A stretch of 33,296 nucleotides of DNA, from NCBI GenBank assembly GCA_903902705.1, contig CAIUVX010000174.1:1-33296 (forward strand). The letters are read 5' to 3'. This DNA is from an uncultured Methylococcales bacterium. GTDB taxonomy: Bacteria; Pseudomonadota; Gammaproteobacteria; Methylococcales; Methylomonadaceae. The notes beneath the pieces were generated by a model that was given only the letters and a program-made list of their open reading frames with translations, was not told the DNA's origin and did no database searches. Position numbers and translations under genes: made by a program. The first letter of the stretch is position 1. Each line of letters begins with the position of its first letter. Shown one piece after another: positions 1,288 through 24,301 of this stretch.

Positions 1288-1996
1288 ACCTAAAAATTAT
1301 ATCGGTTCAACAATCTTATTTGTGGGCATTTTTTTTACCGCGACTATTATCGGCATTCTGCTTATTACGGGTATGTTAACGACTTTCAAATTCCGCTGGA
1401 AAATTGGTCATATCTGGTGCGCAATTATCAGTTGGATAACTAAAGTGTCTTGCGGTCTTACTTTTGAAGTCGAAGGCATGGAAAATATCGACCCAAATCA
1501 ATCTGTGGTTTTTTTGAGCAATCATCAATCCGCTTGGGAAACCTTGGCATTGCGTTATATTTTGCCGCCGCATTCGGTGGTGATTAAAAAAGAGTTGCTG
1601 TATTTTCCCATTTGGGGATGGTCATTGCTGACGCTAAAATCCATTGTGATTGACCGTAAAAAGCAACGTGCGTCATTACGCGCTTTGCTTGAGCAAGGCA
1701 CACGCTATTTGAATGAAGGTTTATCAGTACTGATTTTCCCAGAAGGTACACGCACTGCACCTAAAGAACTCAAAAGTTTCAGTATTGGTGGCGCGATGTT
1801 AGCGCATAAATCAGGCTATCCTGTGATTCCTGTCGCCCATAATGCAGGCGATTTTTGGCCGCGTTATAGCTTTTTTAAATATCCAGGGGTGATTAAAGTA
1901 AAAATCGGCTCTGCCATTGAAAGCAAAGGGCGTAAAGCTACTGAGATTAATAGCGAGGCAGAAAACTGGATAGCTCAAGCCCTGAAAGATATGTAG
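1253..1996 (+). CDS. plsC: 1-acyl-sn-glycerol-3-phosphate acyltransferase (PlsC family)
   Basis: This membrane acyltransferase adds the second acyl chain to lysophosphatidate in phospholipid synthesis. I chose the ATG at 1253 (MTQQNTSF), giving 247 residues; an in-frame ATG at 1235 would add six residues and overlap gmhB further. A hydrophobic N-terminal helix lies at about residues 19-41. The catalytic motif is NHQSAWE at residues 90-96, where the usual final Asp of H(X)4D is Glu. The second hallmark, FPEGTRT, is intact. Such E variants occur in the family, so activity is expected. It is co-transcribed with gmhB. Confidence 0.9.
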   Translation: MTQQNTSFQDPRPKNYIGSTILFVGIFFTATIIGILLITGMLTTFKFRWKIGHIWCAIISWITKVSCGLTFEVEGMENIDPNQSVVFLSNHQSAWETLALRYILPPHSVVIKKELLYFPIWGWSLLTLKSIVIDRKKQRASLRALLEQGTRYLNEGLSVLIFPEGTRTAPKELKSFSIGGAMLAHKSGYPVIPVAHNAGDFWPRYSFFKYPGVIKVKIGSAIESKGRKATEINSEAENWIAQALKDM

Positions 1997-2050
1997 ACGT
2001 ATTTTTATACGTTCCAACCACCCAATTTTTAAACCAACCACGGTAACTCC

Positions 2051-2473
2051 ATGAAAAAAAAACTATTACTTGTTCTTTGTGTCTTATTGCTAACGGCGTG
2101 TGCCGATAAAAATCAATATGAACAAGCAATCTTGGTACAAATGCAACAAGAACAAGATGTTAAAGATTATAAAATACCACCAGAGGATATGGTGAAGTGT
2201 GTGGTCGCACAAACATCTGAAAAAATGCCTGGGATTTTTGCGTTTGACCCGACGCGTTTAACCGCTTATAAGAACTATGCAAAAATGCTAAGTTTAACTA
2301 CCCCTAAAGATCCAAAATCAACGGTAGATCAAAAAGCAGTCATGGAGCAATTACGCACCGATTTTGGATCACCGCAAGCTCTCTCTGAAGCACATTCTAA
2401 CTATACAGAAAGCGTGGTGGAATGTTATTCGGTGATGATTTCAAAGTCTGAAGACGCAGCAAAAGCAAAATAA
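2051..2473 (+). CDS. Small putative lipoprotein of unknown function
   Basis: The 140-residue protein starts with a type II signal peptide ending in a lipobox, LLTAC, with Cys17 as the probable lipidated residue. Asp19 follows two positions later (CAD). The mature part is soluble and charged, with two cysteines (in KCVVAQ and ECYSVM) that could pair in the periplasm. I recognise no family. It lies 54 bases after plsC and about 110 before the protease gene, all on the same strand, so it may belong to the same transcript. Confidence 0.75.
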   Translation: MKKKLLLVLCVLLLTACADKNQYEQAILVQMQQEQDVKDYKIPPEDMVKCVVAQTSEKMPGIFAFDPTRLTAYKNYAKMLSLTTPKDPKSTVDQKAVMEQLRTDFGSPQALSEAHSNYTESVVECYSVMISKSEDAAKAK

Positions 2474-2585
2474 ACCAAGATTACAAGGGGGTAATGGACT
2501 ATAAAAACAGTTGTTCTAGTTCATTGAATTAAGGTTTTTTAAACCCATAGTGGTGATACACACTAACAAACGATGGAAAATAATA

Positions 2586-3950
2586 ATGAATAGTAAATTA
2601 GTCAAACAACTGCTATTGATGACGCTGTTACCCGTGTTCTTGTGTCTTCATGCCCCCGCCTTTGCCACGGGTTTACCGCCTGCGGTTGATGGGCAGCTCA
2701 TGCCCTCATTAGCACCGATGCTAGAACGCAGTACGCCTGCTGTTGTTAATATTTCTACCTCAACCAATATTGAGATTAAAGAAAACCCGCTGATGCAAGA
2801 CCCATTTTTTCGGCAATTTTTTCAAGTCCCCAATATGCCACGCCATCAAGAACGTAACAGCTTAGGTTCAGGCGTAATTATCGACAGTGCGCAAGGGCTG
2901 GTATTGACTAATAACCACGTTATTGCCAAAGCCGATAAAATCAAAGTCACCTTACAAGATGGTCGCCAGTTGGCGGCGCAGTTGGTAGGTGCGGATGCCG
3001 AAGCCGATGTGGCGGTGATTAAAATTCCTGCCGAAAATCTAACGCAAATACCCATTGCTGATTCCAGCCGCTTGCGCGTGGGTGATTTTGTGGTGGCAAT
3101 TGGCAATCCGTTTGCCTTAGGGCAATCGGTGACTTCAGGGATAGTCAGTGCCTTGGGTCGTTCAGGTTTGGGTATTGAAGGCTATGAAGATTTCATTCAA
3201 ACCGATGCCTCGATTAATCCAGGCAATTCAGGCGGCGCATTAGTGAATTTACGCGGTGAATTAATTGGCATGAATACCGCCATCCTCGCGCCTAACGGGG
3301 GCAATGTCGGTATTGGTTTTGCCATTCCCACTAACATGGCAATGACTATTAAAGACTCGCTAGTCAAGCACGGTGAAGTTAGACGCGGTTTGTTAGGTGT
3401 GACCACCCAAGATTTAACCCCTGAGTTGATGACCGCTTTTAACATGACGCAAAAACAAGGCGCGGCGGTTAGTCGCATTGAAAGTAATTCTCCCGCTGAA
3501 AAAGCAGGTTTACAAACAGGTGATGTGATTATTGCGGCAAATGGTCAAGCGATTAAAAATAGTCATGATATTCGTAACCTCGTGGGTCTGCTACAAGTCG
3601 GTGATGGCGTTGAACTTGAATACATTCGTGGCAACGAAAAGAAAACCGTCACTGCCACCATTAGCAAGCCCGAACAAGTTCAACTTGCGGGTGATAAATT
3701 ACACCGCACGCTAAAAGGTACGCTATTAACCACAACGCAAAAAGACCAGCTTGAAGGCGTGGTGTTTAGCAAAATCAATGCTAATTCCTACGCGGCGCGG
3801 GTTGGTTTGCAAGCGGGTGATGTGATTGTTTCCGCTAACCGTTATCGGGTACATAATCTTGATGAGTTAAAGCAGGCGGTGAATCCCAATAGCGCGTTAC
3901 TGATAAATATTCAACGGGGCGAAGAAGGTTTGTTTGTTGTGTTACAGTAG
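2586..3950 (+). CDS. degQ: Periplasmic Do-like serine endoprotease (DegQ/DegP, HtrA family)
   Basis: This 454-residue periplasmic protease and chaperone degrades misfolded envelope proteins. The ATG at 2586 gives a clean signal peptide ending APAFA; a GTG at 2550 would add 12 polar residues and is less likely. The catalytic triad is visible: His111 in LTNNHVI, Asp141 in EADVAVIKI and Ser215 in NPGNSGGALV. Two PDZ domains follow, at about residues 255-345 and 365-450, each with the GLQxGDVI motif. The length matches DegQ better than DegP. DegP and MucD are close alternatives. Confidence 0.92.
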   Translation: MNSKLVKQLLLMTLLPVFLCLHAPAFATGLPPAVDGQLMPSLAPMLERSTPAVVNISTSTNIEIKENPLMQDPFFRQFFQVPNMPRHQERNSLGSGVIIDSAQGLVLTNNHVIAKADKIKVTLQDGRQLAAQLVGADAEADVAVIKIPAENLTQIPIADSSRLRVGDFVVAIGNPFALGQSVTSGIVSALGRSGLGIEGYEDFIQTDASINPGNSGGALVNLRGELIGMNTAILAPNGGNVGIGFAIPTNMAMTIKDSLVKHGEVRRGLLGVTTQDLTPELMTAFNMTQKQGAAVSRIESNSPAEKAGLQTGDVIIAANGQAIKNSHDIRNLVGLLQVGDGVELEYIRGNEKKTVTATISKPEQVQLAGDKLHRTLKGTLLTTTQKDQLEGVVFSKINANSYAARVGLQAGDVIVSANRYRVHNLDELKQAVNPNSALLINIQRGEEGLFVVLQ

Positions 3951-3966
3951 TATTTTAAATAATACC

Positions 3967-4000
3967 GTAGATTGGGTTAGCGTAGCGTAACCCAATCTAC
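3967..4000. repeat. REP-like hairpin (GTAGATTGGGTTA family)
   Basis: A 34-base inverted repeat between degQ and moaB. The left arm GTAGATTGGGTTA pairs with TAACCCAATCTAC around a short loop. It is the same design as the element at 30383-30460, with arm bases changed in pairs (ATTGGG here, GTCGGG there). It has no T-tract after it, so it is not a classic terminator. Confidence 0.75.
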
Positions 4001-4021
4001 AATTCTCCGAGGTACAACCCC

Positions 4022-4543
4022 ATGACCACAGAAAAATCCTTCATCCCGCTTAACATCGCCGTGTTAGTTATTTCCGATACTCGCACCTTAGCCGATGATG
4101 TCTCAGGCAGTATTTTAGCTGAGCGTGCATTAGTCGCAGGGCATCACCTCAGCGAAAAAAAAATCGTCCCTGATAATATTTACGCCATTCGCGCTGCTGT
4201 GTCCAATTGGCTACTTGATGAGCGCGTTAATGTCATTATCAGCACAGGCGGTACGGGGGTAACAGGTAGAGACGGCACACCCGAAGCGGTGTTACCGTTA
4301 CTCGATAAAGTGCTAGACGGTTTTGGCGAAACCTTTCGGATGTTGTCTTACTCAGAGATAAAAACCTCCACCATCCAATCCAGAGCAATTGCAGGCGTGG
4401 CGAACGGAACTTATATTTTTTGCTTACCTGGTTCTAGCAATGCCTGTCGCACCGCGTGGGATTTACTCATCAAAGACCAACTCGACTACCGCACCCGCCC
4501 TTGTAATTTAGTCCAACTCATGCCGCGCTTACTGGAGAAATAA
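4022..4543 (+). CDS. moaB: MoaB/Mog-family molybdopterin adenylyltransferase
   Basis: The 173-residue protein belongs to the MoaB/MogA fold, which adenylylates molybdopterin before molybdate insertion. The core motif STGGTGVTGRDGTPEAV is intact, with the N-terminal strand IAVLVISDTRT and the C-terminal CLPGSSNACRTAWD. The nearest style is MoaB, the single-domain protein of proteobacteria, rather than MogA. Its stop overlaps the next start in TAATG, so it is coupled to the DUF423 gene. No other molybdenum-cofactor genes are in the window. Confidence 0.9.
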   Translation: MTTEKSFIPLNIAVLVISDTRTLADDVSGSILAERALVAGHHLSEKKIVPDNIYAIRAAVSNWLLDERVNVIISTGGTGVTGRDGTPEAVLPLLDKVLDGFGETFRMLSYSEIKTSTIQSRAIAGVANGTYIFCLPGSSNACRTAWDLLIKDQLDYRTRPCNLVQLMPRLLEK

Positions 4544-4932
4544 TGCAAACCACTCTATTCCTCGGCGCGTTATGCGCCTTCACAGGCGTGGCATTCGGCG
4601 CGTTTGGCGCACACGGATTAAAAGCCATACTCAGCCCAGAAATGCTCACGGTTTATCAAACAGGTGTAACTTATCAAATGTGGCACGCGCTGGGTTTAAT
4701 TCTAGTGGCGTTGTTACAGCAAACATCACCGACTGCAAAATTATTAAGCTGGGCAAGTCACTTGATGTTCATCGGTATCCTGTTATTTTCGGGTAGCTTA
4801 TACGCACTGGCAATCCTAGACATCAAAGCACTAGGCATGATTACCCCATTTGGTGGCGTGTTTTTTTTAATCGCGTGGCTGCTGGTGGCGGTGTATGCGG
4901 TTAAGAAAAAAACGCATAATCGGTATAGCTAG
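4543..4932 (+). CDS. DUF423 family inner-membrane protein (YgdD-like)
   Basis: A 129-residue protein with about four transmembrane helices. It carries the family signature GAFGAHGLK near residues 22-30 and YQMWHALGL near residues 47-55, both diagnostic of DUF423. The function of the family is not established. It begins on the last base of the moaB stop codon, so the two are translated together. Length is normal for the family. Confidence 0.88.
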   Translation: MQTTLFLGALCAFTGVAFGAFGAHGLKAILSPEMLTVYQTGVTYQMWHALGLILVALLQQTSPTAKLLSWASHLMFIGILLFSGSLYALAILDIKALGMITPFGGVFFLIAWLLVAVYAVKKKTHNRYS

Positions 4933-4982
4933 CTTGTATTTTATGGACTATTAATTTTAGTAAGTAGGAATCATAAAACATT

Positions 4983-5789
4983 ATGTCTACAGAAAATAAG
5001 CCTAAGTCTAAAAAAATTATGACAAGATTTCGACTTTTTTTTAAAAGATTGTTACTTATTAGCGTTATATTTGGACTTGTCGCTTCTAATATTCTGACTC
5101 TCCTTAACGAGGAAATTCATACTAGGGCTTTTAAAGCTTTAAAATCAGTTATTGCCTCTGTGACTAATGATGAAGTCTTATTGCGTGTATTAGCTCTTAG
5201 TCCGACAATAACAACAATTTCTTCTTTAGAAAAATCTCTCGAAGAAATTAAGACGGAAAATGCTGAATTAAAGAAATCTCTCCAAACAATTAGAGTACAA
5301 CGTAGTGAGTTAGAAAAATTTTATGACGAAATTAAAGTTCAATATGCTAAGTCAGAGGAGCAACGTATTGGTTTAGAGAAATCTTATGACGAAATTAAAG
5401 TTCAATATGCTAAGTCAGAAGAGCAACGTATTAGTTTAGAGAAATCCTCGGAAGATCTCAAACAGCTTTATAATCAATTAGATAAAAATCATAATGAACT
5501 ACAGCAAAAGTCTAAAAAACGAGTTTATACCGCTAATAGAATCTCAAAACGAATTGCACAGCGTGCTATAACAAATGCAACTAAAAATGCCTCTTCATTT
5601 TTTTCTGAAATTATTCCTGGTTTAGGTACAGTGGTAATAGTAACATTAACGATTTCTGACGTTTATGATGACTGTCAAACATTACAAGACTTGAACCAAT
5701 TAAATGGTGATTTTGAATTTGAAAAAACAGATGAAACTACAGTTTGTGGAATGGATATGTCATTTTTAACAGACTATTTACCTGATTAA
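4983..5789 (+). CDS. Coiled-coil membrane protein with tandem 21-residue repeats, unknown function
   Basis: The 268-residue protein has a basic N-terminus and a membrane helix at about residues 20-42. A long Lys/Glu-rich coiled coil runs from about 80 to 180, followed by a second hydrophobic segment around 208-225 (IIPGLGTVVIVTLTI) and an acidic tail. Within the coil two 21-residue units (LEKFYDEIKVQYAKSEEQRIG and its neighbour) are nearly identical and encoded by two 63-base direct repeats at 5310-5435. Codon use is visibly more AT-rich than the housekeeping genes upstream, suggesting transfer. I recognise no family; the shape suggests a membrane-anchored scaffold or spacer. Confidence 0.8.
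   Translation: MSTENKPKSKKIMTRFRLFFKRLLLISVIFGLVASNILTLLNEEIHTRAFKALKSVIASVTNDEVLLRVLALSPTITTISSLEKSLEEIKTENAELKKSLQTIRVQRSELEKFYDEIKVQYAKSEEQRIGLEKSYDEIKVQYAKSEEQRISLEKSSEDLKQLYNQLDKNHNELQQKSKKRVYTANRISKRIAQRAITNATKNASSFFSEIIPGLGTVVIVTLTISDVYDDCQTLQDLNQLNGDFEFEKTDETTVCGMDMSFLTDYLPD
5310..5435 (+). repeat. Two 63-bp direct tandem repeats inside the coiled-coil gene
   Basis: Units 5310-5372 and 5373-5435 differ at only a handful of bases and encode 21-residue coiled-coil units, each beginning LEK and ending SEEQRI-G/S. The period of 21 residues equals three heptads, so copy number can change without breaking coil register or reading frame. A more diverged LEKS start follows. Confidence 0.9.
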
Positions 5790-5804
5790 ATTGGATAAAT
5801 TATT

Positions 5805-5840
5805 TTAGTGCATAGGATGGGCTGAGGCACGAAGCCCATC
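5805..5840 (+). repeat. Short dispersed repeat: TTAGTGCATAGG leader plus TGGG..CCCA hairpin (copy 1)
   Basis: The leader TTAGTGCATAGG (5805-5816) runs into a hairpin with stem GATGGGCT / AGCCCATC and loop around GAGGCACGA. A second copy with the same leader and the same loop edges TGAG..CGAA lies at 24423-24457; there the C-G pair of the stem is A-T. The element sits just upstream of higB. Confidence 0.7.
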
Positions 5841-5876
5841 AATCGCGTTGAATAAATCCGAATAACTGAAAAAATA

Positions 5877-6164
5877 ATGCACCTTATCACAAGGAAACGG
5901 TTAAATGATTTTGTGGCGTTATATCCTGAGGTAAAAACCGCTTTGCAGCATTGGTATCGACTGATTAAATTGAATAACTTTGATTCATTTAATGAACTAA
6001 AGCTATTATTCCCTCATGCCGATCAAGTGGGTAGATTGACTGTTTTTAATATCGCAGGGAATAAAGTTAGATTGATAGCGGCTATTCATTACAACAGTCA
6101 TAGAGTTTATATTGGTAACGTACTCACTCACAGTGAATACAATAAAAACAAATGGAAGGAGTGA
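5877..6164 (+). CDS. higB: HigB-type mRNA interferase toxin
   Basis: This 95-residue protein matches the HigB_toxin branch of the RelE-like superfamily. It starts with HLITRKRLNDF, followed by ALQHWYRLIK, then FNIAGNKVRLIAAIHYNSHRVYIGNVLTHSEYNK. Toxins of this group cleave mRNA on the ribosome. It is complete and four bases ahead of its partner antitoxin gene, in the toxin-first order usual for higBA. Since the antitoxin gene is damaged, the toxin may be weak, silent or still restrained by the remaining N-terminal half. Confidence 0.88.
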   Translation: MHLITRKRLNDFVALYPEVKTALQHWYRLIKLNNFDSFNELKLLFPHADQVGRLTVFNIAGNKVRLIAAIHYNSHRVYIGNVLTHSEYNKNKWKE

Positions 6165-6168
6165 ATAA

Positions 6169-6402
6169 ATGTCAGCCGTTTATCTCGAAAAAATAACCCC
6201 AGTTTGGAATGATATTTCAACTTTTATTCACGTTTTACATACTGAACAAGATTACCAACAAGCGGTTGCTTTATTGGATAGTATAATTGATGTGGTGGGT
6301 GAAAATGAAAGCCATCCATTAGCCTCATTAATGGAGTTGATCGGGGTATTAATTGAGCAATATGAAGATGCTCATATTCCTGAAATTACCGATAGCCAAT
6401 AG
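6169..6402 (+). CDS. higA: HigA-type antitoxin, truncated before its HTH domain
   Basis: The 77 residues match the N-terminal half of the COG5499-type HigA: ALLDSIIDVVGENESHPLASLMELIGVLIEQYEDAHIP. Full members continue about 50 residues further with a Cro/C1-type HTH; here a TAG stop follows ITDSQ. Downstream bases 6410-6469 still read in other frames as GVLEL and PAQILSLEEIG, which looks like the start of the missing HTH, and the IS1-like left end begins at 6470. So the gene was probably cut by the insertion and then decayed. Whether the remaining half still neutralises HigB is unknown. Confidence 0.75.
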   Translation: MSAVYLEKITPVWNDISTFIHVLHTEQDYQQAVALLDSIIDVVGENESHPLASLMELIGVLIEQYEDAHIPEITDSQ

Positions 6403-6469
6403 ATACACAATACTGGAGTGTTGGAACTATCCACTATGACCCGCCCAGATTTTATCCTTAGAAGAAATT

Positions 6470-7302
6470 GGTAGCGGGTGAAACTTGTTAATTCGATTTA
6501 TAATTAGTCAAATAACATTGCAATCGATATGAGACTCTTCGGCTATGACCTGCTATCAAGAAAACCTGCCCCAAGTGTGGCGACAATCAGCACTGAAGGC
6601 AGGTCGAAACGCAAGCGGCACCCAGAGATACCGCTGCCAAAATCCGAGTTGTCCTACCAAGATGTTCATGATGACGAGCCTATCAAGCGGGGATTAAGGA
6701 ACAGGTGGTAGAGATGGCAATCAATGGGAGCGGCATTCGTGACACCGCACGGGTACTAAAAATCGACAAGAACACCATCATCAGCACATTAAAAAAAAGC
6801 AACCACGCTGGTGCAGGTCAACGCAAAGCTGTTTGAGTTAGGCGCAGACGGCGGACTGGAAGTCAGACTAGAAGCTGACTGCGAGGTTGAGATGGACGAA
6901 CAATGGTCTTATGTCGGTAACAAGTCTAACCAACGCTGGCTATGGTACGCCGTTGACCACGCCACGAATACGGTGCTGGCTTATGTGTTTGGTAAGCGTA
7001 AGGATGAGGTATTTAAGGAACTCAAAACCTTACTTGAACCGTTTGACATTGCTCGCTACTACACCGATGACTGGGGGCATATCAACGTCACCTAGAGACC
7101 GATAAACATGAGATTGGTAAGCGTAATACGCAAAAAATAGAACGTAAAAATCTGACAATCGTACATGGATCAAGCTGCTTACCCGCAAAACCTTATGTTT
7201 CTCAAAATTGGAATTGATGCACGATACTGTCATCGGTTTACTGATTAACAAGGTCGTTGTGGACGAGATATTTATGCTTAATTACAGGTTTCACCCACTA
7301 CC
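6470..7302 (+). mobile_element. Degenerate IS1-family insertion sequence with both terminal inverted repeats
   Basis: The left end (from 6470) starts GGTAGCGGGTGAAACTTGT and the right end (to 7302) read backward starts GGTAGTGGGTGAAACCTGT, differing at few positions over about 23 bases. The 833-base length suits IS1. Inside are remnants of InsA and InsB. The 9 bases before (GAAGAAATT) and after (TATAAAGTC) do not match, so there is no target duplication; a deletion or rearrangement beside the element is likely. The element is dead through several frameshifts and stops. Confidence 0.85.
6547..7265 (+). pseudogene. IS1-family transposase remnant (insA/insB)
   Basis: The InsA part reads KTCPKCGDNQH, stop, then KAGRNASGTQRYRCQNPSCP with the paired zinc-finger cysteines. 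After another frameshift comes an HTH-like segment, VVEMAINGSGIRDTARVLKI. The InsB part (from about 6811) keeps the first two catalytic acidic motifs, MDEQWSYVG and TDDWG, then shifts frame. It resumes with HEIGKRNTQKIERKNLT, carrying the catalytic Glu region, and later LMHDTVIGLLIN. At least three lesions separate these pieces, so no active transposase can be made. Confidence 0.85.
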
Positions 7303-7309
7303 TATAAAG

Positions 7310-7451
7310 TCACAACAAGTCTAATGCAGTTTGTAGCGTTTGATATTCATCAAGCGTCATTGTGTAGCGGTACAGCGGTTGCCCGCTATCACGCAGTAGA
7401 TTGTCTGTCTTGATGGGTTAAATAGTGATTGAGCCAGTCTTTAGGGTGCAT
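7310..7451 (-). pseudogene. Unidentified gene tail, frameshifted
   Basis: On the minus strand an ATG at 7449-7451 opens MHPKDWLNHYLTHQD. The neighbouring frame then reads KTDNLLRDSGQPLYRYTMT and LDEYQTLQTALDLL up to a TGA at 7310-7312. The two pieces look like one protein end broken by a frameshift near 7400. I do not recognise the family. It begins exactly where the IS1 right end stops, so it may be the far side of an IS-associated deletion. Confidence 0.3.
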
Positions 7452-7476
7452 GGTTACGCTTGTATTCGACAGCTAA

Positions 7477-7509
7477 AAACCTGTCAGTTTTTTAAAACCT
7501 GACAGGTTT
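7477..7509 (-). terminator. Hairpin after the cytochrome peroxidase gene (CCTGTCAGG family)
   Basis: Arms AAACCTGTCAG and CTGACAGGTTT form an 11-bp stem around an A/T loop. Read on the minus strand, the hairpin lies about 30 bases after the peroxidase stop and is followed by TTTTT, so it can act as an intrinsic terminator. A close copy is at 26623-26655. Confidence 0.65.
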
Positions 7510-7539
7510 AAATAAGTTTGCGTAGTGCCAAACTTACGA

Positions 7540-8544
7540 TTAATTAGTGGTGTGATCTAACGTAGGCGGCAACGTAGGCATGGTTTGTTTAGGGAACTCG
7601 CCAGTCAAACCTTCCAAGAAAGCCACAATATCGGCAATCTCTTCTTTTGATAAATCCTTATCTAACTGTAATTTAGCCATAATTTTAACGGCTTCTTCTA
7701 AGGTTTGAACCGAACCGTTATGGAAATAAGGCGCGGTTAAAGCGATATTGCGCAGCGTTGGTACTTTCCAAAAATGTTCATCGGCTTCATTTTTGCTGAC
7801 TTCAGCCAAACCTTTATCTTTTTTGAAATGATATTGCGCGGCAAAATAAGGATTGTCATGCACAGGAAATTTTTGGAATGCGCCTGCACCATTAAATGCC
7901 GCACCACTATGACAGCTAGTACAACCTAATTCAGCCATTTTAGTCATGCCACGCACTTGCTGTTCAGTGAGTGCCGCTTTGTCACCACCAACATACTTGT
8001 CATAAGGGCTATTAGGCGTAATTAGCGTTCTTTCATACGCAGCAATGGCTTTAGTTGCATTGTCCTTAGACACTGAATTATCACCAAACGCACGAGCAAA
8101 GGCTTCGTTGTAACCTTTAATGGTTTTTAATCTGGCAACTACTGCATCCCAATCTTTCATACCCATTTCAATTGGATTAGTCACAGGGCCTGCGGCTTGC
8201 GCTTCTAAGCTAGCCGCTCTACCATCCCAAAACTGCACTGCGTTGAATGCTGAATTCCATACTGTTGGCGCACTGCGTCCCCCTGTTTGACCATTAACAC
8301 CCATTGAATTAGGTCTATTATCCTCACCACCTAACATAGTGTTATGGCAAGACGCACAAGAAACCGTGCCTGTAGAAGATAAACGAGGATCGTGATACAA
8401 CATTTTACCCAATTCAACTTTTTCTTCTGTGGTCGGATTGTCAGCAGGAGCAGGTGCTGTCGTTGGCAGAGCATCCCACGCTGAAGCCACCGAAATAGAA
8501 CCTACTAAGGTCAATGCTGTCACCAGCAAACGAATTTTAAACAT
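7540..8544 (-). CDS. ccpA: Di-heme cytochrome c peroxidase (CcpA/MauG family)
   Basis: This periplasmic enzyme reduces hydrogen peroxide to water with electrons from small c-type cytochromes. I chose the ATG at 8542-8544 because GGAG lies six bases before it; a TTG four codons upstream has no such site. The 334-residue precursor has a signal peptide ending VASA before WDALP. Two heme c sites are present: CASCH (Cys63, Cys66, His67) and CTSCH (Cys208, Cys211, His212). WKVPTLRNIALTAPYFHNGS is the typical C-terminal family motif. It stands alone between an IS remnant and a long intergenic region. Confidence 0.92.
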   Translation of the reverse strand: MFKIRLLVTALTLVGSISVASAWDALPTTAPAPADNPTTEEKVELGKMLYHDPRLSSTGTVSCASCHNTMLGGEDNRPNSMGVNGQTGGRSAPTVWNSAFNAVQFWDGRAASLEAQAAGPVTNPIEMGMKDWDAVVARLKTIKGYNEAFARAFGDNSVSKDNATKAIAAYERTLITPNSPYDKYVGGDKAALTEQQVRGMTKMAELGCTSCHSGAAFNGAGAFQKFPVHDNPYFAAQYHFKKDKGLAEVSKNEADEHFWKVPTLRNIALTAPYFHNGSVQTLEEAVKIMAKLQLDKDLSKEEIADIVAFLEGLTGEFPKQTMPTLPPTLDHTTN

Positions 8545-12346: not shown

Positions 12347-14506
12347 TTATGTTTCAAAGTTACACGCTGGCAGCTGAATGATAAATCCCGCGCCTACTTT
12401 ACGACTGGTATCAACCCAGATCGCGCCTCCATGCTCTTCTATTATTTTTTTGACTATCGCCAATCCCAAACCTGTTCCTTTGGCTTTGGTGGTCACATAA
12501 GGTTCAAAAATGGTTTCTATTTGTTCGTCTTTGATACCCGTCCCATCATCATAAAGGGCAATTTCGATAAAATCACTGTCATTTTTTTGTACTCTGTGCA
12601 AATTGATTTCAATCAGCCCTTGAGCTTCTATGGCTTCTAGGGCATTTTTAATCAGATTATGTAATACCTGCCGAATACTAACAGGATCTCCCATAATTAG
12701 CAGGGAAGTAGCTTCGTAATCGGCTTTAAATTTAACGCCTGACTTTAACACATAAAGAGCCATAATTTCCTGTACTAACACAGGCAAATCGATAATGACA
12801 GTTTGTTTTTTAGACGGTTTGGCGTATTCAGAAAAATCATCGACCATTTCTTTCATCGCAACCACTTGCTGAACAATCGTCCGCGTAGAACGTTCTAGCA
12901 TATCAGCATCGTTAGGCTCTAGTTTATCAGCAAGTTTATGTTGCAATCTTTCTGCGGAGAGCTGAATAGGCGTAAGCGGATTTTTAATTTCATGCGCCAA
13001 GCGTCTTGCCACTTCACCCCACGCAGCATTTTTTTGTGCTTGAATTAAATCAGTGACATCATCAAATACCACCACCGCGCCTACCCGTTGACCTTCTTGG
13101 GAAAATAACGGTGTGCCTCGACACAGTAATTCTTGCCGCCCATTCGCCCCTAAAAATGCTATCCGCTGTTGCCAAATATCATCCCCTTGCTCAAGTAAAC
13201 GTTGAATAGATTTTAACGGCTCTGCTAATTCGGAATAACTCAAGGCGATTTCCAACAAAGTTTGCCCAACAAAATGCTGAACCTGAATACGAAATATGCG
13301 ATACGCCGCTTGATTGGCAGTACGAATTTTATAATCTGCATCAAAACTAATCACCCCAGCCGTCAAATTGGCGAGTATGGTTTCCAAATAGGCGCGTTGA
13401 TTTTCAACTTCAAAACCTGCCATTTTGGTTTCATCACGCGCGACGGCAATGCGCTTGGTCATATCATTAAATGATTCCACCAAAAAGCCTAAATCATCTT
13501 GTGCCATGACGGGCAGTTGTTGGTCATACTGTCCTGACGCTACGGCTCGCGTGCCTTTTACCAATTCTTTAACAGGCGCGATAATGTGGCGAATGCTAAT
13601 AAACGCCACCCAAATTGCTGCCAGTAAACTCATCAATAACACCAGCGACAATGCCAGCGAAAAACTCCAGCGCAAAGAATTTCGTAAATAATTCATTTCT
13701 TGATAACGCAAAAAGGCAAATTCCACCGAATCGGCTAAATCAGCTATGCGTATCGGCACAGGGTATAGAGCTTGTAAATATTTCGAGTCTTGCTCTTGGG
13801 TTTTTACCGCGACAATCACTCGAATCATCAACACATCATCATGCACAGGGGCTAAGGCAACATATTGAGAATTTTGCTTTAACCGTAGCCACACATTTTC
13901 ATCGGGTAAACTGGGCAGAATGTCGCTGGGATTAATACTGCTGGAGGCAATAATTCTGCCTTGGCGAGAAAATAGCGTCATTTCTGATGCTTCTGAAAAA
14001 TTGCGTAAATTTTCCAATTCCAAGGTCGCTATGTTCTCAGTGGAGGTTTCCAGCTTTTCAGCCAATTGTTGGGTTTGCTTAGTGTGCCAGCGCATACGTT
14101 GATCTAATGACGATTGACTCAATTCCAGCGCGTCTTCCATTGCCCTGTCTATTTCGACATTAAACCAACTATCAATACCTTGATGCAAAAACTGCATGGA
14201 AAAATAAAACACGATAGCCGCAGGAGCTAATGCCAATAATACAAATAGCGACACCATGCGCGTGGTAAGCCGTGAACCTGCCTCACGTTTTTTTAATTGC
14301 TTGATTAGTGCGAAAATATTCACGCCCACCAAACCCAGCAACACCACAGAACCTAAACCATTGGCTAATAACAGCCACGAATACATCGCACTGAGTTGTG
14401 AGGACTCTTGGGTTGCCGAACTCATCAACTGCAAGGACAATAAAATTAAGCCAAACAGAATAGAGACTGACAAATAGATAGGCAGTTTTATTTTTTTAAT
14501 CGCCAT
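12347..14506 (-). CDS. ntrY: NtrY-type membrane sensor histidine kinase
   Basis: A 719-residue kinase that should phosphorylate NtrX in response to nitrogen, redox or envelope signals. Membrane helices lie at about 9-28, 42-69, 85-107 and 281-305, with a periplasmic region between the last two. Then come HAMP (306-355), PAS (about 375-485) and a HisKA domain with His505 in RRLAHEIKNPLTPIQLS. The ATPase domain has NLIKNALEAIE, DDGTGIKDE and GTGLGLAIVKKI. All catalytic boxes are intact. It follows the TPR gene by 29 bases and precedes ntrX by six. Confidence 0.93.
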   Translation of the reverse strand: MAIKKIKLPIYLSVSILFGLILLSLQLMSSATQESSQLSAMYSWLLLANGLGSVVLLGLVGVNIFALIKQLKKREAGSRLTTRMVSLFVLLALAPAAIVFYFSMQFLHQGIDSWFNVEIDRAMEDALELSQSSLDQRMRWHTKQTQQLAEKLETSTENIATLELENLRNFSEASEMTLFSRQGRIIASSSINPSDILPSLPDENVWLRLKQNSQYVALAPVHDDVLMIRVIVAVKTQEQDSKYLQALYPVPIRIADLADSVEFAFLRYQEMNYLRNSLRWSFSLALSLVLLMSLLAAIWVAFISIRHIIAPVKELVKGTRAVASGQYDQQLPVMAQDDLGFLVESFNDMTKRIAVARDETKMAGFEVENQRAYLETILANLTAGVISFDADYKIRTANQAAYRIFRIQVQHFVGQTLLEIALSYSELAEPLKSIQRLLEQGDDIWQQRIAFLGANGRQELLCRGTPLFSQEGQRVGAVVVFDDVTDLIQAQKNAAWGEVARRLAHEIKNPLTPIQLSAERLQHKLADKLEPNDADMLERSTRTIVQQVVAMKEMVDDFSEYAKPSKKQTVIIDLPVLVQEIMALYVLKSGVKFKADYEATSLLIMGDPVSIRQVLHNLIKNALEAIEAQGLIEINLHRVQKNDSDFIEIALYDDGTGIKDEQIETIFEPYVTTKAKGTGLGLAIVKKIIEEHGGAIWVDTSRKVGAGFIIQLPACNFET

Positions 14507-19038: not shown

Positions 19039-19132
19039 TTACCGTTGAAACTTATCTTGTTTGAATTTACCGACAAATTTTTCACCATTAGGAAAAATCA
19101 ATGTACCTTGACCATCGGATAAACCATTTTTT
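19039..19132 (-). other. Out-of-frame MORN tail of the upstream gene
   Basis: After a run of six A (19127-19132, minus strand) the alternative frame reads NGLSDGQGTLIFPNGEKF then VGKFKQDKFQR and stops at TAA 19039-19041. This completes a normal MORN repeat. Five A instead of six would join it to the preceding coding region and give a protein of about 424 residues. Confidence 0.8.
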
Positions 19133-20314
19133 AAATTGACCAATATATTTACTACCATCGGGATAAGTTTGTGTGCCGTGTCCATTACCATTAACACAAT
19201 CGCCTTTAATACAACGCGGTTGCGTTCCGTCAGGTTTGGATGGTGGGGTCACAGCATCGGAGTCTAATTTGCTATTATCCGTTTGCGGTGTAACTTGTGG
19301 GTTATTTTTGACGAGTTTACCGTTTTTAAATTCGCCAACGTATTTATTGCCATCTGCATAAGCAAGTGTTCCATGCCCATCTGCCTTGTTATTTTTAATA
19401 TCACCAACGTATTTATCGCCATTGGCGTAATTAATTGTCCCTTGACCGTTGGTACAGTTGCCAAAACATCTAGTGACAGCTTGTGGCGGACTTAGTGTTG
19501 GTACGGAAGCTACTAGAGGCTGTTCTGGAGTATTGTTGTTTTCAGACTGAGTGCCAGAAAAAATATAAACGATAGCGATAAAAATAAATCCCGCGATCCA
19601 CCATGCAAAAAATTTTGATAACAATTGAGTTATAGGCAGATTTGCTAAAACAGGCGGTAGTATCATTGCGACTTTATGTACAAGCCTAACAGCACCTTTG
19701 GCATTATAGCCATCCCACATGATAAATTTACCGATGCGTTGTTGTGTTGTGATAGTTTTTGTCGGCAGTGGTGGTTGAATGTGAAGTTTTGTTAATCTTG
19801 ATTGTATCGCGCCTTCTGTTCTGTGCAGAAGTTTGGCAAGCTCACCAATTGTAGAGCCTTCAGCGTATTTTTTCCTTAGGCTATCATCGTCAAGCGCAGA
19901 CCATTTTGCATAAGCATTAGGATGTTTTTTGCGTACCACTTCGACACGATCTGCTTTTCCTTCTTTTACTGGCGGTGGTGTTGGTGATGTTTTTACCGTC
20001 GATTGATTCACACCTAAAGCCAATGCCCACGATTCCACCGCCCAATAAGCAAACTCTTCTTTCATTCCAACAGTATCATGCAAGCGTTTTGCTAAACGCT
20101 CTAGCTGCATATTGAGGGGAATTAACGCACTGGGTTGTAATAATTCTTGTGCGACTTTCTGCTCTAATGCGGAAACCAGTAAATTATTTTCTAAGCGGTG
20201 GTGCGGGGCTAAATCACTTAACATCCCGCGACAACGTTTTGGTTCAGCAATAATATTTTGACCATATTGCTGAATAATCAAACACAGTTGTGCGCGAGGA
20301 TGTGGGTCTAGCAT
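19088..20314 (-). CDS. Shared-module protein with HTH-like motif, membrane helix and MORN repeats (frameshifted end)
   Basis: Starting at MLDPHPRAQL (four bases after the PP2C stop begins), residues 1-102 form a cysteine-containing helical module, 87 of 102 positions identical to the protein at 23270-24151. Residues 132-178 (AKWSALDDDSLRKKYAEGST, then GELAKLLHRTEGAIQSRLTKL) look like a Myb/SANT or HTH unit. QRIGKFI at 192-198 is again shared with the paralogue. A membrane helix lies at 235-254, then at least three MORN repeats (NYANGDKYVG, AYADGNKYVGEFKNG, TYPDGSKYIGQFK). The frame is lost after QFK, giving a false end KWFIRWSRYIDFS. A membrane-tethered output of the kinase cluster is my inference. 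Confidence 0.75.
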   Translation of the reverse strand: MLDPHPRAQLCLIIQQYGQNIIAEPKRCRGMLSDLAPHHRLENNLLVSALEQKVAQELLQPSALIPLNMQLERLAKRLHDTVGMKEEFAYWAVESWALALGVNQSTVKTSPTPPPVKEGKADRVEVVRKKHPNAYAKWSALDDDSLRKKYAEGSTIGELAKLLHRTEGAIQSRLTKLHIQPPLPTKTITTQQRIGKFIMWDGYNAKGAVRLVHKVAMILPPVLANLPITQLLSKFFAWWIAGFIFIAIVYIFSGTQSENNNTPEQPLVASVPTLSPPQAVTRCFGNCTNGQGTINYANGDKYVGDIKNNKADGHGTLAYADGNKYVGEFKNGKLVKNNPQVTPQTDNSKLDSDAVTPPSKPDGTQPRCIKGDCVNGNGHGTQTYPDGSKYIGQFKKWFIRWSRYIDFS

Positions 20315-20315
20315 T

Positions 20316-21125
20316 TTATTTTTCCTCAGCACCATAAATGACCGCTAAGCTAATATCATCACCACTACCTTGTTGTGAGGTTTCATTAAGCCAGCCTGCT
20401 AAATCTTGTTTCACTGAATCCGCGCCATCGGTGCTTATAAATTCGTTAATATCGGTTAAGGCTTGATAAAAACCATCCACCTGTTTGAAGGAATTTTTAT
20501 AACCATCGGTGATTAAAAAAATGGCTTTTGGTGGTTCAACAATTGGTATAAACGCATCACGAAAATCTTGCCACGGTTTTTTATTGCATAAAGAAGTGGT
20601 GTCATTGCCCAATAAACGTGCATCGTTTGGAATCGGCGTAATTAGCATCCCATCCGCTTGAATGACAACAATATCACCATCACCGATTTGCCAATATAAA
20701 ATACAATCTTTTAAAACACAGGTGACCAGTAATGTTGTACCAAAGGGTAAATAACGGTTTTTAGTCGGTGTTTTTGTGCGTAAACAATCTTCTATACCTA
20801 ATTTTTTTAGATAACTATCGACTTTATCGTGCCAGCAATGGGTAAGTGTTTGCGGCAATTTTTCTGCTAAAGTGCGAATTTGTGGCAAAGTTAAATCAGG
20901 TGAATCAAACACCGTTAGCACACTGTCAATTGCCGCTTCAACAGCAAACTTCGCGCCTAAATGACTGTGCGTACAACGTGTGCTACCGTGACCATCGGCA
21001 ACGGCAACAATCAGCGGTAAGCCTCCTTCTGCTTGATAATGGTCAACTGCATCTTGATTACGCAAACCATTACGGTGATGCGTTGCCCCGCGTACACTTT
21101 CTGTTAAAACCTGCCAAGTTACCAT
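20316..21125 (-). CDS. PP2C-family serine/threonine protein phosphatase
   Basis: The 269-residue protein has the metal-binding PP2C motifs: RNQDA at 22-26, VADGHGS with Asp44 and Gly45, the middle IGDGDIVVI, LITDGYKN, and the last motif GSGDDISLAV near residue 256. It is expected to dephosphorylate the kinase and its targets. Its start overlaps the vWA gene end by 7 bases and it is nearly contiguous with the MORN gene, so these three are one transcript. This kinase-vWA-PP2C combination is known from TerY-P triads. Confidence 0.9.
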   Translation of the reverse strand: MVTWQVLTESVRGATHHRNGLRNQDAVDHYQAEGGLPLIVAVADGHGSTRCTHSHLGAKFAVEAAIDSVLTVFDSPDLTLPQIRTLAEKLPQTLTHCWHDKVDSYLKKLGIEDCLRTKTPTKNRYLPFGTTLLVTCVLKDCILYWQIGDGDIVVIQADGMLITPIPNDARLLGNDTTSLCNKKPWQDFRDAFIPIVEPPKAIFLITDGYKNSFKQVDGFYQALTDINEFISTDGADSVKQDLAGWLNETSQQGSGDDISLAVIYGAEEK

Positions 21126-21820
21126 ACGTCCGCCGATGTTGTAGGGTCAACAGTGGGAATAGCGGGTAATGGTACATTACCACTGGTTTCTGTAGTGACT
21201 TGGCTAGGTGGTGCAGAAGCCGCTTGTAATACTGCCGTTGATACCCAACGAATATAATTAACCAGTTGTTCTGCGTTTTGTGCTTGTAACGGTGGCAATT
21301 CTGGATTACCAATAAATTGTTCCATCACGTCTAAATCGACATCATCACCTATGGCAATAGCAATGCGCACGGCTTTTTTACCCCACGGCAATTTCATTAA
21401 CGCCGCTAAGCCACTGGCAAAATCATCAGTGGGTTGACCATCTGAGATTAACACTAATACAGGGGGTAAACCGCGTTCTTCCATTGGGGGCATTTTCAAT
21501 TGATCAGCCACTAAATGTAGTGCTGCACCCATTGCCGTCATGCCCTCAACGTGTAAATCTTGCCAGTTGAACTCATCGACTTTGGTAGGTTGTGCAACGT
21601 GCCATTGTGCGCCAGTGGAAAATTTAACCGCTCTTACCAGCACCTCTGCATTGACATTATCAGCCGCTACCTGTCGCATGGCGGGAATGGCTTCTTTAAT
21701 GGCGTGATTAAGGGATTCAATTTTACTGCCGTCCATTGAATATGAACAATCGGCTATCCATATAAAATGCAAGGGACGAGTGGCTAATTCTCCACCGGGG
21801 CGTTTTTTTACTTTGGTCAT
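21119..21820 (-). CDS. TerY-like von Willebrand factor A domain protein
   Basis: The 233-residue protein is essentially one vWA domain with a complete metal-ion-dependent adhesion site: Asp24-x-Ser26-x-Ser28 (ADCSYSMDG), Thr95 (EGMTAMGAAL) and Asp127 (LISDGQPTDD). It should bind a protein partner through a divalent metal. The short C-terminal tail after residue 200 is low-complexity. No signal peptide, so it is cytoplasmic. Together with the adjoining PP2C and kinase it matches the TerY-P triad described in tellurite/stress systems, although no terB/C/D gene is in the window. Confidence 0.9.
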   Translation of the reverse strand: MTKVKKRPGGELATRPLHFIWIADCSYSMDGSKIESLNHAIKEAIPAMRQVAADNVNAEVLVRAVKFSTGAQWHVAQPTKVDEFNWQDLHVEGMTAMGAALHLVADQLKMPPMEERGLPPVLVLISDGQPTDDFASGLAALMKLPWGKKAVRIAIAIGDDVDLDVMEQFIGNPELPPLQAQNAEQLVNYIRWVSTAVLQAASAPPSQVTTETSGNVPLPAIPTVDPTTSADVW

Positions 21821-21867
21821 GAAGTTTCCTGTTGTTTAGTGTGATACAGCGGTTTTAAATTGCATAC

Positions 21868-21893
21868 GGAATACAAACCTAGGTTTGTATTCC
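21868..21893. repeat. Perfect 26-bp palindrome between kinase and vWA genes
   Basis: The half GGAATACAAACCT is followed directly by its exact complement AGGTTTGTATTCC, with no loop. It lies 7 bases after the kinase start-distal end region and 48 bases before the vWA start on the minus strand, so it may attenuate or separate transcription within the cluster, or bind a dimeric regulator. Confidence 0.7.
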
Positions 21894-21899
21894 AGCAGA

Positions 21900-23219
21900 T
21901 TAAATGCGAATTTCAGCTTGCGTTTGTCCAAAATTAAGCGTGATGCCAGTCGTTAAAGTCACGCTTTGCCCTTGAGCAACCGTTTTAACAGCATTGTTTT
22001 CGGTGAATGTCCACGCCTCCGCTGTTAAATTTTTTAAACCCCAGATAGTGGGATTTTGTGGATGCTGAACCACTTGAGCAACCGCAGGTCTTAACTCATT
22101 CTTACGGTTAGGATAAAGATGATACGGATATAATTGCGTACCGCTATTTAAAACCACCGTCATTTCTTGTGTAGGGTGTTTAATGCGAATGCGCGGCGGC
22201 AGTTGCAAGCGTTTTTGACAATCCCAACAAGGCTGCATTTGTCGTGTCGCTTTAAACTGAACAAAATCATAAAAATTCTCCGCTCCACACGCACATTCAA
22301 TAATATTGTCTTTTAAGCGCAATAACTGTTGTCGCCAAACACTACCCCGCACTCGACTGTGGGTATCATTCAAACCTTTAGTAAATGACAGCATAAACAA
22401 GTCTTTAATAAACTGTGGATAAATTGCCCAATAAATAAGCGCGTTATCTTGATAGCCCTTCACAGGGTAATTGCTGTTATCGTTGGGATCAAAAATGAAC
22501 AACGGTTGCGAACCGTATAATTGATTCATCGCAGGCAAATCAAAGCATTTAATATCAGCTTCACGTTTACCTTCTAACGGATGATGTAAAAATAGCAGAT
22601 AAAACAATAACACGGCTAAAGAAAACAAATCGCTGTCACTGTTGGGATTGCTATCACGGCGAACAATCTCAGGCGACATAAAACGCGGCGTACCAATCAC
22701 CCCCGTCGTTTGCGTACCATTGATAGTGACGTTATCGTTATCACAAATCAAAATCGCGCCCGTATCAGGGTCAATAAAAAAATTACCAAAAGAAATATCG
22801 CGGTAACACAAACCTTTAGCATGAAGCTGTAAAAAGCTATCAGTTAATTCAACGGTTGCGGTCAGTAATTGGCTAAAGTCCAACTCAATACGGCGTTTGA
22901 TTAAATCAGAAATATTTTTGTAATTGGCAGGGCGTAAGGGCATGACATAACCAAAGCCTGTGTTATTAATTGCAGGAGCTAATGCCAGTGGAAATAAAAA
23001 ATTAGCATTCGGCGCACCAATTTTTAATAAGTGCTGTAACGCGGTGTATTGTTCGGGGGTCGCTTGTTGAGGAAAATACCATTTAAGCGCGACTGCCGCG
23101 CCGTTTAAATCAGCACGATAGACTTCACCTTGTCCGCCTGAGCCTAAGAATGCTTGCACGGTACAGCTTGCGCCATTGTCTAGTTGGACGGTTTGATTGA
23201 GTTTTAGGAGTTGGTTCAT
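21900..23219 (-). CDS. Serine/threonine protein kinase with C-terminal zinc ribbon
   Basis: The 439-residue protein has a kinase domain at about 15-305: glycine loop LGSGGQGEVY (25-34), Lys46 in VALKW, catalytic YRDISFGNF with Asp141 and Asn146, DND (160-162) replacing DFG, and SPE for APE. A zinc ribbon follows (Cys309, Cys311, Cys331, Cys334), then a beta-rich C-terminal domain of about 90 residues. This kinase plus zinc-ribbon layout is typical of the TerY-P kinases. No membrane helix is seen. The start has no clear ribosome site. It should phosphorylate partners in the same cluster; its substrate is unknown. Confidence 0.88.
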   Translation of the reverse strand: MNQLLKLNQTVQLDNGASCTVQAFLGSGGQGEVYRADLNGAAVALKWYFPQQATPEQYTALQHLLKIGAPNANFLFPLALAPAINNTGFGYVMPLRPANYKNISDLIKRRIELDFSQLLTATVELTDSFLQLHAKGLCYRDISFGNFFIDPDTGAILICDNDNVTINGTQTTGVIGTPRFMSPEIVRRDSNPNSDSDLFSLAVLLFYLLFLHHPLEGKREADIKCFDLPAMNQLYGSQPLFIFDPNDNSNYPVKGYQDNALIYWAIYPQFIKDLFMLSFTKGLNDTHSRVRGSVWRQQLLRLKDNIIECACGAENFYDFVQFKATRQMQPCWDCQKRLQLPPRIRIKHPTQEMTVVLNSGTQLYPYHLYPNRKNELRPAVAQVVQHPQNPTIWGLKNLTAEAWTFTENNAVKTVAQGQSVTLTTGITLNFGQTQAEIRI

Positions 23220-23269
23220 GGGCGTTATTTTTTATTGTGTTGTTATGGGGGGAGTGAAAACTAAAAAAC

Positions 23270-24151
23270 TTATTGTTTTCCTCGCATGATTCGAACAGAG
23301 TGGCAGGAATATTTATTGTCACTGAAACCATGACCATTACCGAAGTTCATAAACCACGCCTTGCCATTACTATCCTCACTGGGCGAAGATGCCCAAAACC
23401 AACGGTTATTCTTGGGAAAAACATCTGCATCAATGTAATTACCTGTTTTACCTTTGACTTTATCAATCAGTGTTTTTAACTCATCAATTGTGGGTAATCG
23501 CCAATCGGTATAACCTGCATAACTACTTTGTTTAGCTACATCAAAAGCTGTTTTCCAATTGCCTTCTTTTGCATTACCAGTGGCTGTGCCATTTTCCCAC
23601 GTTTGCCCATGTGCAAAACGACACCACATTAAGCCTGTTTCTGTATCCGTAGCGATACCCTCTTGCACAATAAATTTACCAATACGCTGTTTTGTAGCTG
23701 ATGGTGGAATAATTTTTGGTGCTGGTGTGGGTGTCACTGCAACTTTAGGGGCTGGCATTGCTTGAGGTTTTGGTATTGATTGAACAGGTGGCGGAGAAAC
23801 ATTTGCTATTGATTGAACCGTTTGTTTAGGCATCGGCTGTTGAATCACACCCAAAGCCAACGCCCACGATTCCACCGCCCAATAAGCAAAGTCTTCTTTA
23901 ATACCCACAGTGTCATGCAGCCGTTGTGCTAACCGCTCCAACTGCATAGCCACTGGAATTAAAGCAGTAGGTTTCAATAATTCCTGTGCGACCTTCTGCT
24001 CTAACGCCGCGATGAGTAAATTTATTTCTAAACGGTGGTGTGGTGCTAAATCACTTAACATCCCTTTACAGCGTTTCGGTTCGGTAATAATAACTTGCCC
24101 ATATTGCTGAATAACAAAGCACAATTGGGCGCGTGGATGTGGGTCTAGCAT
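23270..24151 (-). CDS. Shared-module protein with C-terminal DUF1566 (Lcl) domain
   Basis: The 293-residue protein opens the kinase cluster; AAAGGAG precedes its ATG. Residues 1-102 are the same helical module as in the MORN protein (15 differences in 102). A proline-rich linker (105-152) leads to QRIGKFI (155-161), and then to a DUF1566/Lcl domain: TDTETGLMWCRFA, GYTDWRLPTIDELKTLID, WFWASSP and CHSVRIMRGKQ. That domain belongs to the formylglycine-enzyme/C-type-lectin-like fold group and usually serves in binding. There is no signal peptide, so a cytoplasmic sensor or kinase substrate is plausible. Function is not established. Confidence 0.82.
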   Translation of the reverse strand: MLDPHPRAQLCFVIQQYGQVIITEPKRCKGMLSDLAPHHRLEINLLIAALEQKVAQELLKPTALIPVAMQLERLAQRLHDTVGIKEDFAYWAVESWALALGVIQQPMPKQTVQSIANVSPPPVQSIPKPQAMPAPKVAVTPTPAPKIIPPSATKQRIGKFIVQEGIATDTETGLMWCRFAHGQTWENGTATGNAKEGNWKTAFDVAKQSSYAGYTDWRLPTIDELKTLIDKVKGKTGNYIDADVFPKNNRWFWASSPSEDSNGKAWFMNFGNGHGFSDNKYSCHSVRIMRGKQ

Positions 24152-24244: not shown

Positions 24245-24301
24245 CCGTTCGTGGTGAGCTTGTCGAACCACAACACCCTTCGACAAGCTCAGGGCGAACG
24301 G
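24245..24301. repeat. REP-type long hairpin (GAGCTTGTCGAA / TTCGACAAGCTC)
   Basis: Outer arms CCGTTCG and CGAACGG enclose inner arms GAGCTTGTCGAA and TTCGACAAGCTC, with small internal mismatches (TGGT against AGGG). The sequence resembles the widespread proteobacterial repeat containing TTCGACAAGCTCAGGGCGAA. It is probably an extragenic palindrome mobilised by REP-associated transposases. Confidence 0.75.

Follow-up and report, generated by a model that had tools for sequence, protein, structure and literature searches.

Which proteins feed into a bacterial kinase/phosphatase/vWA triad of the TerY-P kind, and which are acted on by it? To our knowledge, neither the targets nor the inputs of such triads have been established. 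The question is raised by a 33,296-nucleotide stretch from an uncultured Methylococcales bacterium (contig CAIUVX010000174.1, hereafter the window), in which five co-directional genes on the minus strand (19088-24151) encode, in order, a module joined to Lcl_C, a kinase, a vWA protein, a PP2C phosphatase and the same kind of module joined to a helix-turn-helix (HTH)-like segment and MORN repeats. We propose, with a probability of roughly 60%, that these genes form a mobile phospho-signalling cassette in which a docking adaptor would plug varied recognition arms into a kinase/phosphatase/vWA hub. An unnamed, widespread helical domain linking the triad to exchangeable arms would offer a concrete hypothesis for the inputs or substrates of the triad.

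The triad and its two module proteins

The initial annotation had placed a TerY-P-like kinase/vWA/PP2C centre here, and Pfam confirms it with matches for all three products of adjacent genes, namely a Hanks-type kinase (21900-23219, 439 amino acids; Pkinase, E 7.1e-18), a TerY-like stand-alone vWA protein (21119-21820, 233 amino acids; E 6.6e-07) and a PP2C phosphatase (20316-21125, 269 amino acids; PP2C_2, E 6.4e-38), all on the minus strand like the other cassette genes given below. Judged by sequence, the core of the cassette is a TerY-P-like triad. The catalytic motifs of the PP2C and the kinase are in place; the kinase retains VALK, YRDISFGN and ICDNDN, the catalytic lysine included, and YRDISFGN is printed in 36 of the 48 kinase matches listed. 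The metal ion-dependent adhesion site (MIDAS) residues of the vWA, DxSxS...T...DG, are invariant throughout a 23-row alignment.

The C-terminal tail of the kinase (21903-22328) is predicted to fold as a zinc ribbon followed by an FHA-like beta-sandwich, with a predicted local distance difference test (pLDDT) score of 92.7. Four cysteine columns are conserved across 36 aligned kinase tails, as in the zinc ribbon of TerY-P kinases; the Pfam zinc-ribbon matches are weak and occur in some of these tails (best E 0.0002), with none for the window tail. Among the best 50 of 494 Foldseek matches to the tail, the majority carry an FHA description and one is the MH2 domain of SMAD3; the best E value among the matches listed was 0.011, with none at or below 0.001. 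Other chains among these matches, TIFA, EmbR, kinesins and GarA complexes, presumably also hold FHA domains. PADLOC matches of the kinase (PD-T4-6, mad6) were taken as generic kinase similarity. Related core proteins at other loci show variations of their own: a vWA protein appears split by a second vWA domain inside it (L086:11336-12745), and in Chloroflexota a protein of 844-898 amino acids adjoins the triad (L142:10982-13627, L146:9299-11995 and L147:11014-13548), the L146 protein being an ordinary PknB-like kinase fused to a triad-type kinase that lacks CDNDN and is perhaps a pseudokinase.

The first gene (23270-24151) encodes 293 amino acids, comprising the module (residues 1-102, 23846-24151), a proline-rich linker and an Lcl_C/DUF1566 C-type-lectin-like arm (PF07603, E 5.8e-25). 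The last gene (19088-20335, 415 amino acids as read) shares a 20-base overlap with the PP2C gene and encodes the module (20009-20314), the HTH-like segment, a membrane helix and MORN repeats. As the initial annotation had stated, the 102-residue modules of the two proteins are 85% identical (BLASTP 2e-63). Of the differing C-termini that it described, Lcl_C and MORN (E 1.4e-08) are found by Pfam, whereas the HTH is a sub-threshold match alone (Sigma70_r4_2, E 0.0052, short of the cut-off) and the membrane helix was assigned by eye. The 3' end of the last gene is frameshifted: the open reading frame (ORF) stops at 19088, and MORN-like sequence continues by eye in another frame to a stop at 19039, the position from which the initial annotation had counted the cassette. 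In Crenothrix sp. D3 the orthologue (440 amino acids, L065) has an uninterrupted MORN end, and in a Methylococcales metagenome-assembled genome (MAG; L066) the orthologue, of 604 amino acids, has an Lcl_C domain that follows the HTH-like part and precedes the MORN repeats. At this place the window and D3 genes have short stretches that are apparent remnants of a lost Lcl_C domain.

The module segment of the window proteins is covered by no Pfam, NCBIfam or PADLOC match, and a Pfam scan of 82 modules gave neither a family nor a named function, so that the named unrelated function which would have told against the initial annotation did not turn up there. AlphaFold predicts a six-helix domain (pLDDT 96.4). 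Assignment to a known fold was rejected, as Foldseek against the PDB returned nothing under E 1.6 and the best match of the module profile to PDB sequences had an E value of 0.34. The literature searched, in which subscription papers were mostly outside reach, describes this module family nowhere, which suggests a domain family that is undescribed as far as those searches reach. Only at S95 (79%) does the conservation of a hydroxyl residue in the module exceed 75%, and this position lies in a helix beside conserved tryptophans; because of this we doubt, from the alignment, that the module is the main phospho-acceptor. At L154:10001-20302, two giant ORFs (2268 and 1058 amino acids) match the module profile and apparently contain several module copies.

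Association of the module with the triad

When one genome from each of 84,980 species was scanned by pattern with the module alignment as query, 102 stretches were confirmed, the best 80 of which make up 77 loci. These come from Gammaproteobacteria, Chloroflexota, Acidobacteria, cyanobacteria, Armatimonadetes, Gemmataceae, Riflebacteria and other records. Triad genes were located in the fetched flanks with profiles built from four triads. Of these 77 loci, found by the module alone, 49 contained at least one triad gene: all three in 24, kinase and PP2C in 8, vWA and PP2C in 7, kinase and vWA in 2, and a single kinase, PP2C or vWA gene in 4, 3 and 1, respectively. The module does not, then, sit mostly away from the triad, and the proportion was 47 of 72 once L113, L119, L126, L132 and L149, which belong to the window's genus, were set aside. 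In the triad-bearing loci, 76 of 77 module ORFs share the strand of the nearest triad gene, at a median gap of 87 bases (48 of the 77 within 200 bases). The locus L101 has a module, though the ORF filter yields no module ORF from it.

Whole-genome searches, in which the initial candidates were capped in number for some genomes so that the counts are lower bounds, bear out a co-occurrence that the initial annotation had proposed to test. Of 201 Chloroflexota genomes, three have the module (E<=1e-6) and the same three the vWA (E<=1e-50); one of them supplied the query locus. Four of 369 gammaproteobacterial genomes have the module and two the vWA (E<=1e-50), both of the latter being module genomes. 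Among relatives, the module was found in 8 of 61 genomes (one marginal) and the vWA in 10 of 61 (one weak), with seven shared, these being mostly of one genus and so not independent. Just one of 72,556 plasmid records contains the module, and the same record alone has a vWA at least 60% identical; 2270 other plasmid records have vWA matches below 60% identity alone and no module. A phage-borne module was rejected, with none in 50,697 phage records.

The divergence of the two partners is also correlated: across 36 loci, distances between kinases and between their nearest modules gave r 0.813, a value reached in 0 of 2000 permutations (duplicate loci were skipped here and in the within-locus comparisons below). 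When neighbouring ORFs were clustered, no other gene emerged convincingly as a constant operon partner and part of the core; the largest cluster (13 loci) looks antisense-like by eye. The module follows this triad subfamily from phylum to phylum, in an association that is both ancient and widespread.

Exchangeable arms and movement of the cassette

Two other genomes of the genus contain the same cassette (vWA proteins 97-98% identical), and the first-gene arm differs in all three: the window has Lcl_C, D3 leucine-rich repeats (LRRs) and the Methylococcales MAG an additional vWA. More widely, the C-termini have no alignable 50-residue stretch in 15 of 42 protein pairs whose modules are at least 85% identical, the pairs not being independent, as several have a protein in common (110 proteins kept; those below 170 amino acids and duplicate loci excluded). 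Pfam matches to 111 full-length module proteins, with 25 of 121 families listed, were led by LRR_4 (26), Lcl_C (18), FGE (11) and WD40 (9). Arms found once include an MCP signalling domain, a cyclase, ankyrin, RDD, SH3, GtrA, GYF and a beta-helix; Sel1 repeats and MORN with a membrane helix also occur. The 111 are those aligned from a list of 116 that omits the two ORFs above 1000 amino acids at L154, and the arm counts come from Pfam, regular-expression labels being rough. These swaps support the initial annotation in its view that one module is shared while the C-terminal parts can be exchanged, the whole being linked to a kinase/vWA/PP2C core.

Several arms may stand at one locus. A Competibacteraceae MAG has the order module-FGE, kinase, module-FGE, module-ankyrin, module-FGE, vWA, PP2C (FGE by motif). 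Plasmid CP157007.1 of Methylomonas sp. AM2-LC encodes kinase, vWA and PP2C with five module proteins in a row, whose modules are 89-98% identical and whose partners are Sel1 repeats, a part without a Pfam match, a Tim44-like domain, a Clp_N domain and a ClpX zinc finger. In the last two proteins the module is C-terminal, and an N-terminal position is therefore not obligatory. Their partner domains match ClpA residues 1-144 (E 3.4e-44) and ClpX residues 3-79 (E 4.6e-30) among PDB sequences. Both domains, the zinc-binding one of ClpX and the N-domain of ClpA, serve as docking sites for proteolysis adaptors, and the matches therefore indicate that the module acquires docking domains of the proteolysis machinery. 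An origin of the variable Lcl_C arms in a diversity-generating retroelement was dropped, there being no RVT_1 match in the window's genome (the control search matched in 3 of 14 genomes) and no reverse-transcriptase-like ORF by a rough regular expression in the loci scanned.

The window's genome (3.97 Mb) has seven module copies. Two are in the cassette, one has Sel1-like repeats and another a membrane helix with repeats (both by motif or eye), and one more has a cyclase domain. The remaining two form a tandem module plus Lcl_C-like pair that lies beside genes that look DnaK-like and DnaJ-like (L011, G000:C133:20000-34000, at 1581-7810). A chaperone link of this pair is possible; E. coli yegD, the neighbour of yegI, is a gene that we take to be Hsp70-like.

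Several copies per genome, each with different partner domains, are also what would be expected if the module were a homotypic adaptor resembling the effector-associated domains (EADs), module proteins binding one another rather than the triad core. Homotypic adaptors of this kind have been proposed for NTP-dependent conflict systems by Kaur et al. 2020 (PMC7159879), and the FGE-type, tetratricopeptide-type and other partners described there resemble ours. The predicted fold is likewise small, all-helical and non-enzymatic, and modules within a locus are more alike in the median than those of different loci (identity 75% vs 44%), though most modules of multi-module loci have their closest relative in another locus. 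However, the EAD pattern, in which a copy is invariably fused to a core component, does not hold here: the 77 loci contain one module/core fusion ORF, a module plus vWA at L119 in which the vWA is an extra copy. Seven of the 24 full-triad loci have a lone module gene in the fetched stretch, and because of this the system probably does not work solely through pairing between the modules of different proteins. The Pfam matches of the 82 modules (E<=0.1) include no EAD family, and hhalign against one EAD1 sequence gave a probability of 0.2%. On these two results identity with EAD1 was rejected; other EADs were compared through Pfam only. We consider the homotypic explanation rather unlikely.

The surroundings of the cassette point to movement. 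Its flanks differ in all three genomes of the genus: in the window, the nearest genes are the housekeeping genes rsmB, fmt and def on one side and ribD and nrdR on the other (Pfam); in D3, gcvH- and glutaredoxin-like genes; and in the Methylococcales MAG, type II secretion-like genes with toxin-antitoxin- and integrase-like genes opposite (the last two by eye). Directly upstream of the first gene is an inverted repeat of the TTCGACAAGCTCA type (24250-24295). The same type lies upstream of the D3 cassette (L065:5579-5614, with 14-base matches at 5579 and 5601) and also in L014 and L012, while L066 has no match; it may mark where the cassette moved. Elsewhere, PIN-domain-like toxin-antitoxin pairs appear, by eye, to be inserted within a module/triad operon (L075:9138-9825 and 13536-14223), and the window has an IS1-type transposase-like fragment at 6811-7095 (by eye).

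Such mobility, with inverted repeats adjoining two of the three cassettes and alike modules carried with unrelated partners, could mean that a recombinogenic module spreads as a passenger inside a mobile cassette and does not work with the triad. This would have to accommodate an association that spans Gammaproteobacteria to Chloroflexota, Acidobacteria and cyanobacteria at a between-locus module identity of about 44%, the near-universal co-direction and tight spacing of module and triad genes, and a vWA still encoded in most of the genomes behind module loci without triad genes. We regard passive spread as very improbable.

A proposed docking hub and its known relatives

The docking hub that we favour builds on the cross-phyla operon association, the genome and plasmid co-occurrence, the correlated divergence of kinase and module, the arm swaps on a near-constant module, and the catalytic and MIDAS motifs. 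From these we infer physical docking, a direction of signalling, the substrates and a role in recognition or defence. In the core, a Ser/Thr kinase with its zinc ribbon and FHA-like tail would be opposed by the PP2C, and the MIDAS vWA probably keeps the complex together. The module, as the constant part, would bind a core protein, the vWA or the kinase tail being our best guesses. Through the arms, the kinase and the PP2C would gain control over ligands, membranes or enzymes; a ligand-bound arm, or one placing the complex at the membrane, would shift the local kinase/phosphatase balance, and the likely substrates would be the arms or their neighbours. A sensing role of the arms is favoured because they are binding scaffolds.

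By analogy with plant immune receptors that contain integrated decoys, the arms of this bacterial system might be baits. The hub would then register when phages or rivals tamper with these exchangeable baits, or would redirect Clp proteolysis through them. The ClpX zinc-binding domain and ClpA N-domain of the Methylomonas plasmid look like captured host domains, and other modules are joined to a copy of the triad vWA, to a chemoreceptor signalling domain, or to LRR, WD40 and lectin-like arms. We think the bait idea unlikely. If the arms are sensors or baits, a phosphorylation-based design would join the repertoire-bearing bacterial conflict systems.

Should the zinc ribbon and the vWA instead be the sensing parts, the triad would be a ter-type switch responding to metal or oxidative stress, with the arms as mere outputs. 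The triad has the composition of TerY-P as given in PMC11090510, where a metal-sensing switch is a published hypothesis, and the host genome also encodes ter genes, with seven TerD matches, four of them close together at G000:C158:8181-11214 (L164). The cluster, however, lies on a separate contig from the window, in 16 kb that contain no triad or module gene, and Pfam found no ter gene among ten flanking window genes scanned. The initial annotation had described a system without ter genes that may stand alone; this holds for the flanks and not for the genome. Across 33 module-genome entries, TerD was found in 17, the host included (two of these being the same genomes entered twice, G258/G426 and G032/G433), and 16 had no match; the module-triad system can therefore exist without ter genes, though the present host has them. 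The commonest arms, moreover, are binding scaffolds. We judge the stress switch to be decidedly unlikely.

A number of observations weigh against the docking hub. No triad gene was found near the module in 28 of the 77 loci, 12 of which extend more than 5 kb to each side of the module gene, although many of the 28 stretches stop soon past it. Of the 27 genomes behind them, 21 still encode the vWA (E<=1e-30; three of the 21, G441, G443 and G450, are of the window's genus); with six further genomes the count is 27 of 33, which favours the hub, and six module genomes have no vWA match. Two gammaproteobacterial module genomes also lack the vWA, the module protein being short in one and the match weak in the other. 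Because module-bearing loci supplied 21 of the 23 sequences behind the vWA profile, the co-occurrence holds for that vWA subfamily only, and common descent alone could give much of the kinase-module correlation. The closest relative lies in the same locus for only 22 of 65 modules of multi-module loci. No clear set of canonical FHA phosphopeptide residues can be picked out by eye in the kinase tail. With TerD in 17 of the 33 entries, the cassette may also be linked to ter stress responses, although 16 entries lack TerD. Finally, the host genome has a second vWA/PP2C/kinase triad with no module gene adjoining. A second vWA, 62-66% identical, is present in all eight genus genomes searched, the host included, and both copies of the second triad that were read are without an adjoining module gene. 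In this second triad an unrelated gene lies between vWA and kinase (L014:7149-7988 and L074:6366-7115), HNH-endonuclease-like in the host genome and a different ORF in the relative, and the slot may be an exchange site.

The window cassette is like TerY-P, which consists of a TerY vWA, a PP2C and a Ser/Thr kinase with a C-terminal zinc ribbon (PMC11090510, PMC4978471), in having the three components in adjacent genes, the zinc-ribbon tail, and the MIDAS and catalytic motifs. It differs in lacking the linkage to ter or DNA-restriction/processing genes, with no ter, restriction or helicase gene among the ten flanking genes scanned, and in its tie to proteins with a common helical module and variable arms. 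Modules related to TerY-P are called stand-alone in PMC11090510, hence ter linkage is not strictly defining. A kinase, PP2C and stand-alone vWA also recur as a theme in the GAP1-N2 GTPase systems of actinobacteria (Kaur et al. 2020, PMC7159879), whereas no GTPase or GAP1 gene is found among the window genes scanned. The window kinase has a beta-rich tail that is FHA-like by fold search, and the 'beta-strand-rich domain' of section 29 of that paper is likely such a domain, going by the predicted fold; the account in that section names no module of the present kind. The module resembles the EADs of the same paper as a small helical adaptor with several copies per genome and swapped partners. It differs in not being fused to the core as a rule, in lacking a Pfam EAD match and in its attachment to a kinase triad, EADs being attached to MoxR-vWA or GTPase cores (PMC7159879).

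In E. coli, YegL is presumably a vWA protein. As in the cassette, the E. coli kinase and PP2C genes adjoin: PphC (YegK) is reported to dephosphorylate YegI, which, unlike the window kinase, is reported to be membrane-bound (PMC13232886). The antiphage kinase-kinase-phosphatase module KKP (PMC11341870) likewise uses a kinase/phosphatase balance as a switch within a mobile element, but has two kinases and a phosphatase, and its abstract names neither a vWA nor a common docking module. TerY-P triads and exchangeable adaptor domains are already known; what is new, as far as our searches reach, is the module family, its tight cross-phyla link to one triad subfamily and its repertoire of arms.

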